A stretch of 64,000 nucleotides of DNA from Methanosarcina acetivorans C2A (GTDB lineage: Archaea > Halobacteriota > Methanosarcinia > Methanosarcinales > Methanosarcinaceae). The stretch covers positions 4,836,001 through 4,900,000 of the forward strand of contig NC_003552.1 of the NCBI RefSeq assembly GCF_000007345.1. The letters run 5' to 3'. Below are positions 5,427-38,792 of this stretch, in pieces (position 1 is the first letter of the stretch; the number at the start of each line of letters is the position of its first letter). The position numbers and the translations under genes are program-made. Under the pieces are notes generated by a model. That model saw only the letters and a list, made by a program, of their open reading frames with translations, had not been told where the DNA came from and did not search any database.

Positions 5427-6181
5427 GTCGGGTAAGTCGGGAGGATTACTCCTCCTTTCTCCCCCAGGAACCGTACGTGAAAGTTTCCCTTCATACGGCT
5501 CGAGTGTTTTCAAACCCTTTCTGCATCAGGCATCAGTTATTTTGCATAACTGATTTTGTGATTCTGGATAACAGCCCACTAACATTAATGTCTGTAAGCC
5601 TCTCACCTATTGGTGTCTTTGAGTATCTTACACTCGTGAGTTTGTTTCCGTTCACACAAGAAAACACCATCTGTAAGTCTGCATCCTTTCGGATCAGGGC
5701 AAAGTTTGAACCCCTATCCAATCCATTAAAGATTGGCATTCGCTTTTTACTGAATCCTCTACCCTCTTTGTCGTTGTTGCTCCTTACGAAGTTCCTACCC
5801 TTTTGAAGGGAACAAATAGGGCTTACCAAGTTCTATGTCATGAATAATTATGGGTTCTTTAGGGGCCATCTATAAGCCGGAAACCATTTGTCCATTTGCT
5901 TGAACGTCATACCAACCGTTAAAGCCTGATTTCGTACCATTTTGGTCCAAGCGTATCAATCCAATTTCGCTTGCCGTACTTTACGACTCTTACAATGGTT
6001 CACTTTACGTTCCCCATGGAACCCTTACCCTAGCAAGTTATCTGAATTGGATTTTCTGAGGTTCTCACATTGTCCCAGAAGCTTTGCACCCCATCATTAC
6101 TGATGACGCACATTCTGGTAGGGTTACCCCAAATGGAAAGGGCAGCATCTTAGCAATTCATGACATAACTTCTTGTCGCAC
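5427..6181 (-). mobile_element. ORF-less group II intron (about 755 nt)
   Basis: Read on the minus strand, the element opens at 6181 with GTGCGACAAGAAGTTATGTC, which fits the group II 5' consensus GUGCG. Near the other end, 5468-5501 is a 34-nt domain V: GAGCCGTATG, a GAAA-type cap, and ACGTACGGTTC. It has the catalytic AGC triad and canonical pairing. Domain VI follows (GGAGGA-GTAA-TCCTCC hairpin with an unpaired A seven bases from the end), and the intron ends in CCCGAC at 5427. No reverse transcriptase frame lies between, so the intron would need a maturase in trans. ORF-less group II introns are known from Methanosarcina. Boundaries are by consensus and the interior domains were not folded by program. 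Confidence 0.85.
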
Positions 6182-33297: not shown

Positions 33298-34007
<710 letters not shown>

Positions 34008-35354
34008 GTGGCAATTCATCCGATAGAATACCGGTACGGTACAGCAGAAATGAAATACGTATGGAGTCAGGAAAACAGACTAGCTAAGATCTTGCAGACC
34101 GAGGCAGCCCTTGCTCTGGCAGAAGCGGATATGGGACTTATCCCGGCAGAAGCGGCTGAGATTATCTCCGAATGCGTTCCCTCCGTAAAGGCGGAAAGAG
34201 TTGACGAAATCGAAGCCGAGATCCACCACGACATGATGGCTGTTGTTGTTGCGATTTCTGAGAAGTGCAGGGAAGATGCGGGAAAGTGGGTCCATTTCGG
34301 CGCCACTTCAAACGACATCCTTGACACAGCAACCGCGCTCCAGATAAAGGACGCAATCGACCTTCTGGAAGATAAACTCAAAATCCTGCTCAGGGTGCTG
34401 GTAAACCAGGCAGAAGCCCATAAGAACACTGTTTGCTGTGGGAGGACACACGGGCAGATAGGCGTTCCCACAACATACGGGCTCCGTTTTGCAATCTGGG
34501 CTTCCGAGATTTCAAGACACCTTGACCGCCTTTACGAGCTGACTCCGAGAGCTACCGTGGGGCAGATGACCGGGGCTGTCGGAACTCAGGCAGCTTTTGG
34601 GAAGTCCGGAATCCTGATCCAGAAACTTACGATGCAGCACCTCGGAATCGGGGCTGTGGATGTCTCAAACCAGATAATCCAGAGAGACAGGCATGCCGAA
34701 TTTGTGATGTGGATGGCAAATACTGTTACGACCCTGGACAAGATCGGCATCGAAATCAGGAATCTGCAGCGCAGTGAAATCGCCGAGATTGAGGAAAGTT
34801 TCGGGAAAAAGCAGGTGGGTTCGTCTACCATGCCCCACAAGCGGAACCCGATCAAGTCCGAGCAGATCTGCGGGCTTGCGAGGATCGTAAGGGCAATGGT
34901 TGAACCTGAACTCCTTAACAACACCCTCTGGGACGAACGGGACCTTACAAATTCTTCCTGCGAGAGAGTCGTCTTCCCGGAAGCCTGTGTGCTTACGGAC
35001 CATATCCTTAAACTTGGGATCCGTGTGCTTGAGAATCTCAGGTTCTATCCCGAAAATATCCGCAGGAACCTGGACCTGCTAAGAGGCCTGAACATGGGCG
35101 AAGCTGTAATGATCGAACTTGCAAAAAGGGGTGTAGGCAGGCAGGAAGCCCATGAGCTTGTCAGGACTTCGGCTATGGAAGCCCATGAGACGGGGCAGCA
35201 CTTCAAACAGGTACTTCTGGATACTCCTTCCGTTTCAAGGTACTTGAGTGTAGAAGATATCGAAAAACTCGTAAATCCCGATAAGTATATAGGAACAGCT
35301 GTAGAACAGGTCGAAGCGCTCGTTGTAAGACTTCGTGAAGCTTATTCCCTCTGA
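34008..35354 (+). CDS. purB: Adenylosuccinate lyase
   Basis: A 448-residue enzyme of the fumarase/aspartase superfamily acting twice in purine synthesis, splitting SAICAR and adenylosuccinate with release of fumarate. Signature GSSTMPHKRNP is at about 271-281; other family motifs are HFGATSNDILDTA (with the His/Ser/Asn region near 102) and GRTHGQIGVPTTYG near 145-158. GTG 34008 (MAIHPIEYRYG) is preferred to the GTG at 33999 because GGAAGGTGAT lies just upstream. Monocistronic. Confidence 0.96.
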   Translation: MAIHPIEYRYGTAEMKYVWSQENRLAKILQTEAALALAEADMGLIPAEAAEIISECVPSVKAERVDEIEAEIHHDMMAVVVAISEKCREDAGKWVHFGATSNDILDTATALQIKDAIDLLEDKLKILLRVLVNQAEAHKNTVCCGRTHGQIGVPTTYGLRFAIWASEISRHLDRLYELTPRATVGQMTGAVGTQAAFGKSGILIQKLTMQHLGIGAVDVSNQIIQRDRHAEFVMWMANTVTTLDKIGIEIRNLQRSEIAEIEESFGKKQVGSSTMPHKRNPIKSEQICGLARIVRAMVEPELLNNTLWDERDLTNSSCERVVFPEACVLTDHILKLGIRVLENLRFYPENIRRNLDLLRGLNMGEAVMIELAKRGVGRQEAHELVRTSAMEAHETGQHFKQVLLDTPSVSRYLSVEDIEKLVNPDKYIGTAVEQVEALVVRLREAYSL

Positions 35355-35483
35355 CCTCTTCCTCTCTTTTTTCCGTTTCTTTCCGGACCGGAAAGAAGCG
35401 AAATTTAGAAGCACAGAAATAAAGACGATTTGGTAAAAGCCAGAAAAACTATTGATTCCTCACATAATTATAATCGATATAAA

Positions 35484-35499
35484 ATATAAATATTTATAT
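35484..35499 (+). promoter_or_regulatory. Palindromic TATA box of RNA locus 1
   Basis: ATATAAATATTTATAT, identical to the one at 36212-36227; 61 bases before the RNA core. Confidence 0.65.
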
Positions 35500-35559
35500 C
35501 AGAAGAATTTAATCATTATTAGGGAACTTCATCAAAAGCTTCATCCAAATTGGGTGATT

Positions 35560-35651
35560 GAGGCATCTAAAAACAGGCGTTGCGTAACTAAAAATCTATT
35601 TGGGCTAGATGTGGTAGATGATTTACGGTGTGAAAGTGGATTAGATGCCTC
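35560..35651 (+). ncRNA. Candidate structured small RNA, copy 1
   Basis: A 92-nt core closed by an 11-bp perfect stem GAGGCATCTAA/TTAGATGCCTC. Inside: GGCGTTGCGTAACTAAAAA, a hairpin ATCTA-TTTGGGC-TAGAT and GGTGTGAAAGTGGA. It is preceded by a palindromic TATA box and followed by AGGTTATTTATAAAATTTGT at about 35667. All these parts recur in copy 2 at 36271. No frame is conserved. The function is unknown; the strong promoter match argues for a transcribed RNA. Confidence 0.65.
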
Positions 35652-35667
35652 ATTAACTCCTACGTAG

Positions 35668-36211
35668 AGGTTATTTATAAAATTTGTGCTAGTTTGACTC
35701 CAGATTCTTTCTAAAGAATTCATTCCCCCATTCCTTCTTTTCAGAATCTCCCTCAAAGTTTTTATCCAAACTGCCTGTCGGTTAAAATCTCATCGTTTAG
35801 ATACAATTCAACTTACAGTCCAAACGTGGACTTTCCGGCTTACTTCAGATCCGTTTGGGAATTCTTTCTGGAGGGGGGTTACTTCAGATACATTTCCGGC
35901 CAAAATCTTCCAGAAGTCCGAATTAGCAGAGCAGATGTACAGTAAGATTTTGTGGACATGTGAATATTTTCTTATGGGCGCTACTCCTCCTGGGAACTAT
36001 TCCTGGTCACTACTCCTAAACGGTAGTCCTAATACATTTTATAAGTGATACTCCTGATGCCCTGACCTGAATGTAATTAAAAAAGTAGGGGGGATTTTTA
36101 GAAAAGATATTAAAGCTTTGAGTTTACAGGAGCTTTAATGCTTAACTAAGTGCAAAATTCACTTTCTCTGGGGAATGAGCTCGCAAACCATATTTTTATT
36201 TCAAAAAAAAG
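35668..36211. other. Spacer between the two RNA loci
   Basis: No gene or clear motif; GC-variable with TCCTGG-type words near 35985-36010 (GCTACTCCTCCTGGGAACTA, TCACTACTCCTAAACGGTAG). Confidence 0.4.
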
Positions 36212-36227
36212 ATATAAATATTTATAT
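36212..36227 (+). promoter_or_regulatory. Palindromic TATA box of RNA locus 2
   Basis: ATATAAATATTTATAT, the same 16 bases as at 35484, here 44 bases before the RNA core. Confidence 0.65.
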
Positions 36228-36270
36228 ATGATGGTTCTGTATCCCAGACAACGTTGCTCTGTGTGGTAGT

Positions 36271-36363
36271 GAGGCATCTAAAAAACGGCGTTGCGTAACT
36301 AAAAAATCTGTTTGGGCTAGATGTGGTAGATGATTTTCGGTGTGAAAGTGGATTAGATGCCTC
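36271..36363 (+). ncRNA. Candidate structured small RNA, copy 2
   Basis: A 93-nt homologue of 35560-35651. The closing stem GAGGCATCTAA/TTAGATGCCTC is identical. In the inner hairpin the A-T pair of copy 1 is a G-T pair here (ATCTG-TTTGGGC-TAGAT), so pairing is kept. Downstream AGGTTATTTATATAATTTGT again matches. The DNA between the two loci shows no such likeness, so only the transcription units are conserved. Confidence 0.65.
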
Positions 36364-36859
36364 AATATTTCCATAGGATTAGGTTATTTATATAATTTGT
36401 GTTTATTCTGTGCACAACCATCCAAAACTTCTTTTTTGTTAAGAAGTAAGGATTCACTTATACTTAAAATTCGCAGACAGGAGTTTTCTTTCGCTCGTTT
36501 TTTCAGCCCTTCTTGAGATTTGAGTAAATGGGATTTCGTATTATTAACCAATCTGGCTACTGTTTATCCCTTTCTTTCCGAGCCAATATGAAAATACATC
36601 CATATACATACGTTCACTGTCAGAGCTTCTCCTGTCCGAGAATCTGAAAGCTTTATTATTTTTGCCGACCACGAACGATTCTCGTCCCAGACATTTTTTC
36701 CGATATTTATGAATGACAAGAGTAATGCTGGACGTTACTTTAAAATACCACCATATAGACTCGCGCATCAGCATTACTCTGTATAACGATGTTCCGGGAC
36801 AGAAGAACGCTTTTCATATCAAAAGGACCTGAGTCCTGATCCATGACATCCGGATTCTC
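36364..36859. other. Intergenic region before ramA end
   Basis: A minus-strand frame at 36544-36774 (76 codons) shows no family resemblance and no ribosome site. Otherwise nothing recognised. Confidence 0.4.
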
Positions 36860-38485
36860 TTACTCCTCCTGTTCAGGTTTAAAGACCTCCAGATTCGCCC
36901 AGTTAAATTTGTCGGGCGGACAGGCCCGGATACATTTCTGGCAGTGGGCACCTTCGCAGAGGTCGGTACTTATCATAATCCTGTTTTCCTCGTCAATTGT
37001 AATGGCATCGTTAGGGCAGACTTTTATGCATTTCTTGCACTCAGGACAGTCAACAACCATGGTCATATAGGTTCCGACTCTTTCGAGTACATGCAGACCT
37101 TCTTCCCCAAGGACAGGGATATCCCTTTCCACGCGCTTATCCACCACAGGGTTGTCTATGGGGTCATCAAGTGACGGAAGACTCTTCTTTTTCAGGTATT
37201 TTTTAAACATTTTAAAGGGCATTCCCTCTTCCCAGTATGCAAGTTCAAGGACGTAGGCGTCCCGGAATTCAGGGGCAGTCGCAAACATTATGTGAGTGCC
37301 TATTATCTGGCTTGCAATGTCCTGAAGTTCCCACAGCCTTCCTTCCGAAAGCAGAATTTCCCTCGCAACAGCAAGAGAGGTGTTCCCGAGCTGAGCAATG
37401 TTCCCCGTAGAGTAGGGGATCAGACCAATTTTCTGGGCTTTTTTAGCATCCATATATGTGCCGGCAGCGCCTGCCATATACGCTGCATCAATATCTGTAA
37501 GTTCTATACCTGCAGTCGCACAAAGCGTAATATGTCCTGCCCGGATTGCACCAATAGCTTTCCCGGCTTCTTTCAGGTCCCTTTCCGAGAAAGTTATTTT
37601 GTTCTGCAGGTGAATTAGTTCGTCTGGAGTTTTGATTTTCGGGAGTACAACCAGATCGTGACCCAGAGCTTTTTCGATAAGGGCAATAACTCCCGTACCT
37701 GTAATTCCTTTTGCTTGGATCTGCCCTGCTTCAAGAATTTCTCCGGTTTTGGGGTCTACGAGATCTCCGGGATCGGGCTTCATCTCTTCGTTCAATACAT
37801 AATTCCTCAATGCTCCATCCTCGAATTCAAAATCCGAAATTGCAAAAGGAGAGGCAAGAGTCCCATGCTTTATCTGCTGCCCTTCAAGAGCAGGCCCTGC
37901 AGCTGCTGAACCGGTGTATATAATGTCTTTTACCTTGAGCGCCATTTCGGCGTTTGTCCCGTAATCAGTTGCAATCGAAACCTGGTCGCTGTCAAGCATG
38001 CCCGATTTAACAATAAGAGCAAGGGCATCGGCTCCGACTTCATGTTTAATTGCAGGCGGGACTACAACTTCACAGTTAAATTCCTCAAGTCCGGGAATTT
38101 CGCTGCTTGGTACGATTCTCGCATTCCTTTTCTGTTCCTCTATATGGTACTTCTTTTTCTTCCGTTCCCCCGCATAAGCCAGGTCTTCAATGCTTATTCC
38201 CTGAAAAATGGATAGCTGGATAGGGTTTCCGCAGACTGAAAGCCTATCAAGCTCTCCGCTTTGCACGTCAAGAGCCTGAAGCAGGTTCTTTACCGCATCT
38301 ATAGAAAGCCCGTGCGCAAGGTCCTGCCCGTAGTGGATTGCGAAGTCCATGTGATCCATCACATTCGCTCCGGGAAGGGGATTTCTCAATGTTATAACCG
38401 TTCTCTTAATTTCCTGGGTATTAAGGTCAATCTTCTGAGCCCTATACCCGCTAGTTCCCAGGTCAATTGCAACTCCATATCTCAT
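36860..38485 (-). CDS. ramA: Corrinoid-protein reductive activase RamA
   Basis: A 541-residue iron-sulfur ATPase that reduces the Co(II) corrinoid of methylamine methyltransferase corrinoid proteins to Co(I), using ATP. An ASKHA-type ATPase body (VAIDLGTSGYRAQKIDL at the N-terminus; ATDYGTNAEMALKV; GITGTGVIALIEKALG) is followed at about 480-535 by two ferredoxin-type [4Fe-4S] motifs, CPECKKCIKVCP and CEGAHCQKCIRACP. ATG 38485 (MRYGVAIDLG) is at the domain start; a codon at 38500 would add five residues. No mtm, mtb or mtt genes are in the window, so it is a solitary ram gene here. Confidence 0.95.
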   Translation of the reverse strand: MRYGVAIDLGTSGYRAQKIDLNTQEIKRTVITLRNPLPGANVMDHMDFAIHYGQDLAHGLSIDAVKNLLQALDVQSGELDRLSVCGNPIQLSIFQGISIEDLAYAGERKKKKYHIEEQKRNARIVPSSEIPGLEEFNCEVVVPPAIKHEVGADALALIVKSGMLDSDQVSIATDYGTNAEMALKVKDIIYTGSAAAGPALEGQQIKHGTLASPFAISDFEFEDGALRNYVLNEEMKPDPGDLVDPKTGEILEAGQIQAKGITGTGVIALIEKALGHDLVVLPKIKTPDELIHLQNKITFSERDLKEAGKAIGAIRAGHITLCATAGIELTDIDAAYMAGAAGTYMDAKKAQKIGLIPYSTGNIAQLGNTSLAVAREILLSEGRLWELQDIASQIIGTHIMFATAPEFRDAYVLELAYWEEGMPFKMFKKYLKKKSLPSLDDPIDNPVVDKRVERDIPVLGEEGLHVLERVGTYMTMVVDCPECKKCIKVCPNDAITIDEENRIMISTDLCEGAHCQKCIRACPPDKFNWANLEVFKPEQEE

Positions 38486-38792
38486 ACAAATTCCCCTCAA
38501 TGATTTATTTTACAGGATGGTTTAACATACTGGAAGCCGTTTGGAATTTTATGTACCTATTACTTTTGAAAAACGACGTATAAATAAATAAGGCGTTTTA
38601 TTCATCAGTAGATATAATTAAAGTTTGGCAGGTGCTCCAACCTACTTTTCCTGATATTTAAGAGATATTTATAAAATAATACCTTCCGGAGACGATTTTT
38701 TCGTTTTTCAAGGGTCATAGTGTGTTTTTTACGGGGGATTTAAAATGCATATCGGGAGGGATAGTTTTATAAGTGAATAATCTCTTTGTATA
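38486..38792. promoter_or_regulatory. Divergent promoter region, ramA and SRP RNA
   Basis: TTTATAA at 38766-38772, about 26 bases before the RNA start, is the SRP RNA TATA box. On the minus strand TATTTATAC at about 38580-38588 could serve ramA. Confidence 0.55.

Follow-up and report, generated by a model that had tools for sequence, protein, structure and literature searches.

The locus lies within a window of 64,000 nucleotides (the whole stretch of DNA that was analysed) from Methanosarcina acetivorans C2A, in the spacer between two genes that were recognised from their sequence, namely purB, which encodes adenylosuccinate lyase (33999–35354, plus strand), and a gene for a RACo/RamA-like 4Fe-4S protein of corrinoid activation (36860–38500, minus strand). 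Both genes converge on the spacer, which harbors two similar cores, a (35559–35652, 94 nt) and b (36270–36364, 95 nt). A covariance model recovers both, and they were assigned to the minus strand on the basis of promoter scores and spacing. An earlier note on this DNA had given the cores lengths of 92 and 93 nt; both cores are real, whereby counting from TGAGGC through CCTCA yields the lengths stated here. As described there, the cores share an identical 11-bp closing stem, TGAGGCATCTA/TAGATGCCTCA, formed by positions 35559–35569 and 35642–35652 in core a and by positions 36270–36280 and 36354–36364 in core b, as well as the invariant segment GGCGTTGCGTAACTAAAAA, and nearly all of the remaining interior is alike, too. 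Right of each core there is a block AGGTTATTTATA(A/T)AATTTGTG (35668–35688 for a, 36381–36401 for b), the matching downstream element of the earlier note. Left of each core there is an AT palindrome of 16 bases, ATATAAATATTTATAT (35484–35499 for a, 36212–36227 for b, listed on the plus strand), which might be a plus-strand promoter or belong to the end region of the respective minus-strand transcript. The DNA between the copies, already seen to be unrelated, is also unconserved: BLAST against relatives yielded alignments only at roughly 35464–35800 and 36040–36480 and none for approximately 35800–36040. An inverted repeat, TTAAAGCT...AGCTTTAA, is located at 36110–36138 left of copy b, within a stretch that is conserved in close relatives, and might mark the end of the minus-strand transcript of this copy.

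In a BLAST comparison with 60 relatives, the pair was found in nine other Methanosarcina genomes, together with one match in another genus. The covariance-model search that the earlier note had proposed was carried out with model R1, which detected cores a and b in the M. acetivorans genome and no other copy there, and 16 positives from three genera among 112 genomes of the family; a class-wide search led to no further positives. Two copies each are present in 10 of the 31 Methanosarcina genomes (pair carriers include Methanosarcina sp. KYL-1, DH2, and 2.H.T.1A.6, on GTDB contigs) and in all four genomes of the sister genus g21, while in the third genus, g2, two drafts were positive, one with two copies on two contigs and one with a single copy. 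Such a recurrence in 15 other genomes is far beyond chance, and wherever the flanking genes were inspected, the element was located in the spacer next to purB. The pair is absent from 21 of the 31 Methanosarcina genomes, in which the distance from purB to the RACo-like gene is mostly only about 80–300 bp. One genome without cores (G019, locus L121) has kept an eroded copy of the block right of core b behind purB (p ≤ 0.001), which points to loss rather than movement. Neither viral nor plasmid sequences matched the element. The suggestion that these are duplicated small-RNA genes and not a mobile repeat has therefore stood up, with two copies per complete positive genome, one and the same site and empty sites in relatives; the many genomic copies expected of a MITE were looked for, and there are two, at one site. 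Independently of the pair, a short repeat with ATGTGGTAGATTAT occurs in several Methanosarcina genomes (L199, L202, L204, and L210) with shared flanks and is perhaps part of a transposable element.

In Methanosarcina and g21 the neighbours converge on the spacer, and because purB and the RACo-like gene face each other there is no downstream gene on either strand, which rules out a riboswitch or leader RNA in these two genera. Frames of 71 amino acids exist in copy a; a peptide gene was nevertheless rejected, since the cores range from 83 to 97 nt in length, with single-base indels between copies and species. A C/D box guide RNA was likewise discarded because neither box C (RUGAUGA) nor box D (CUGA) occurs on either strand of the window's two cores. 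The earlier note had not recognised the family, in agreement with Rfam 15, where no family exceeded its curated threshold and relaxed thresholds gave chance matches only, the best weak match, sn2417, scoring 19.6 bits against a required 80. Elsewhere in the window, group II intron domains (Rfam RF00029 and RF02012) were found on the minus strand at 5427–6144. The cores are intergenic, have no coding frame and possess a predicted promoter of their own, recognised as a sequence motif. Judged by these sequence features, the elements are putative stand-alone RNA genes, neither leaders, riboswitches nor MITEs, and look like regulatory small RNAs.

Whole-core folding was more stable than that of shuffled sequences, with a mean z of -4.45 on the minus and -2.82 on the plus strand; when the closing stem was removed, the mean z rose to -0.5 and 0.0, respectively. 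The internal helices P2 (CGTAA/TTACG) and P3 (ATCTA/TAGAT) are conserved, but they show no covariation and fold no better than shuffled sequences, and were not retained. In the proposed helices 94.3% of the cells were paired, compared to 94.1% in the shuffles, and two double changes were counted where 0.6 were expected, a number matched by 45 of 500 shuffles; covariation does not reach significance because the sequence is so conserved. Thus, the closing stem is supported and the internal hairpin of the earlier note is not. The A-T to G-T change cited for that hairpin corresponds to a C.A mismatch on the minus strand, the strand thought to be transcribed. In the third genus, one core (L070, contig C110 of G031, near 372–461) carries a compensatory T-A to C-G exchange, the only double change in the closing stem. 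Since folding stability resides in the stem and covariation is not significant, the RNA would consist of one stem that holds a long, conserved loop region, C-rich on the minus strand.

For promoter analysis, a 15-bp BRE/TATA matrix was trained on about 30 upstream sequences, taken from the genome's tRNA genes and from the SRP RNA gene. In the window, it identified BRE+TATA motifs on the minus strand at 35673–35687 for copy a (ACAAATTTTATAAAT, score 10.4, 20 nt before the core) and at 36386–36400 for copy b (ACAAATTATATAAAT, score 9.3, 21 nt before the core). In 30 of 31 copies, the block right of the core has a minus-strand promoter score of 9.3–12.0, the lone exception being G006b, where other sequence replaces it, and in all 30 scoring copies the distance from the motif end to the closing stem is 20 or 21 nt. 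Read as a plus-strand promoter, the same block reaches a score of 9 in none of the 31 copies, and only 0.65% of shuffled blocks score at least 9. The SRP RNA of the window has a gap of 20 nt between motif end and RNA start, a comparison that checks the spacing but not the score, as its sequence was part of the training set. The left AT palindrome reaches a plus-promoter score of at least 9 in 13 of the 31 copies; G027b, G031 b, and G063 do not have it, and its distance to the core is variable, with 40–70 nt between motif end and core where the motif looks real. The same palindromic TATA box upstream, reported by the earlier note, is thus present at both copies here but is no constant feature of the family. 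That note had read the RNAs from the plus strand, taking the palindrome for the promoter and placing the 3′ end at the downstream block. This reading is not supported, since the block scores as a minus promoter in 30 copies and as a plus promoter in none. The strand was therefore probably wrong, and the RNAs would be transcribed from the opposite one, with predicted 5′ ends at approximately 35652 (a) and 36364 (b). Substitution polarity was also considered as a strand test. Closing-stem changes in the b copies of g21 (a second one is found in G067b) give U.G on the minus and C.A on the plus strand, while the closing-stem change of G006b has the opposite polarity; changes in the inner helices are G.U-compatible more often on the plus than on the minus strand (131 versus 117 of 140 cells and 129 versus 116 of 145). 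As closing stem and interior contradict each other, this test is not decisive.

Taking these data together, we consider it likely that the minus strand gives the sole or main product. If small RNAs were made from the plus strand only, they would begin roughly 25 nt to the right of the AT palindrome, extend through the core and terminate beyond the downstream block, where the DNA to its right is rich in T. The presence of the palindrome in most copies, the G.U-compatible internal changes and the T-runs that many b copies have behind the conserved block would fit such transcripts; yet the plus promoter is missing in the three copies named above and stands at a variable distance elsewhere, the downstream block has the direction of a minus promoter, and C.A mismatches would occur within the closing stem in g21, so that we regard a plus-only product as quite improbable. 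Transcription of both strands, which appears unlikely to us as well, would account for the conservation of both promoter-like blocks in most copies and for the conflicting strand signals of the helix changes. Here, converging promoters at each core would produce a minus-strand sRNA limited by its own perfect antisense RNA, acting as decoy or limiter. It speaks against this that three copies do without the plus promoter and that, to our knowledge, no converging overlapping promoters of such kind have been described for Methanosarcina sRNAs. The corresponding arrangement of sense–antisense twins, both homogenised by gene conversion under different promoters, is considered just as unlikely. Our estimates for the strands overlap slightly because a two-strand locus can still have the minus strand as its main product.

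A DNA-level element without a functional RNA, be it a MITE or another mobile repeat, an integration site or a regulatory DNA site, could be suspected from a repeat with palindromic AT blocks that 21 of the 31 Methanosarcina genomes do not have. Against it stand the restriction to two copies at a fixed site, with empty sites that have no copies elsewhere in the genome, the lack of viral and plasmid matches, the promoter at fixed spacing from the stem and the remnant promoter block of G019, which indicates loss, not movement; this explanation is very improbable. The explanation that we prefer, and hold to be moderately likely in its full form, is a tandem pair of near-identical, stand-alone minus-strand sRNAs with exposed C-rich segments and separate control.

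The comparison of the two copies bears on the latter point. In the ten Methanosarcina genomes, the identity between cores a and b is 0.899 within a genome versus 0.874 between genomes (none of 5000 permutations was as high), and the within-genome value is about equal to the identity of orthologous a cores (0.891). The flanking 60 nt on the right-hand side are copy-specific, with identities of 0.81 (a–a), 0.86 (b–b), and 0.59 (a–b). This is the signature of gene conversion that affects the RNA part only, while the promoters stay copy-specific. In genus g21, no within-genome homogenisation of the cores was observed (p = 0.92). Furthermore, the alignment revealed a conserved block upstream of promoter b (36397–36429, minus strand), which consists of the inverted repeat TTGTG-N11-CACAA, overlapping the BRE, plus ACCRTCCAAAACT, and represents a possible regulator site. 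The TTGTG-N11-CACAA block occurs in copy b and in both g21 copies and has been lost from the Methanosarcina a copies. We infer from these patterns that both RNAs serve one and the same function but are controlled differently.

For the tandem minus-strand sRNAs we propose that each gene would be transcribed leftward from the BRE/TATA motif just right of its core, whereby the first nucleotide of the RNA would also be the first of the 11-bp closing stem. The stem would join the 5′ and 3′ parts and expose about 70 nt of conserved, weakly structured RNA, including the C-rich minus-strand segments UAAUCCACUUUCACACC, AUCUACCACAUCUAGCCCAAA, and GUUACGCAACGCC. Most likely, these would base-pair with G-rich stretches of mRNAs, e.g., ribosome-binding sites, in the manner of known Methanosarcina sRNAs. 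Gene conversion would keep the RNAs near-identical while their upstream regions differ, so that two different signals probably trigger a single function. Target prediction, as proposed in the earlier note, was realised as a search for near-exact complements of the three conserved segments in seven genomes, in part allowing G.U pairs or one mismatch; the matches sit in coding sequence or repeats, and no shared start-codon site was among them. Base-pairing, if it is the mode of action, would thus be short or interrupted, or else the loop may bind a protein.

In Methanosarcina mazei 242 sRNAs have been counted; sRNA154 has two loops, one with an anti-ribosome-binding-site sequence, and for sRNA41 masking of ribosome-binding sites has been proposed (PMC5867862). 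Like sRNA154, sRNA41, and sRNA162, the twins are putative stand-alone intergenic RNA genes of the same genus, and the mode of sRNA154 and sRNA41 would suit their exposed C-rich segments. The M. mazei sRNAs are described as single regulators, whereas here there is a tandem, near-identical pair; the twins may already be among the catalogued M. mazei sRNAs. The archaeal SRP RNA (RF01857), 2.4 kb right of the twins, has the same promoter-to-RNA spacing of 20 nt, but it is a separate plus-strand gene of unrelated sequence. In bacteria, PrrF1/PrrF2 and OmrA/OmrB are tandem sRNA pairs, adjacent and near-identical, with promoters of their own. The twins resemble them as paired sRNA genes with own promoters that are probably redundant or differently regulated, but their sequence is unrelated and they combine archaeal promoters, a converted RNA part and divergent flanks. 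A literature search, which did not include the key M. mazei sRNA catalogue of 2009, found no paper that prints the core sequence. The elements would thus be of the archaeal intergenic sRNA kind, with the twin arrangement and the gene conversion as unusual features. They apparently constitute an uncatalogued RNA family in a genus that is well amenable to genetic work (M. acetivorans, M. mazei). With RNA parts that stay alike and promoters that diverge, they would provide a clean natural example of sRNA duplication in archaea, in which the reason for keeping two copies can be tested.
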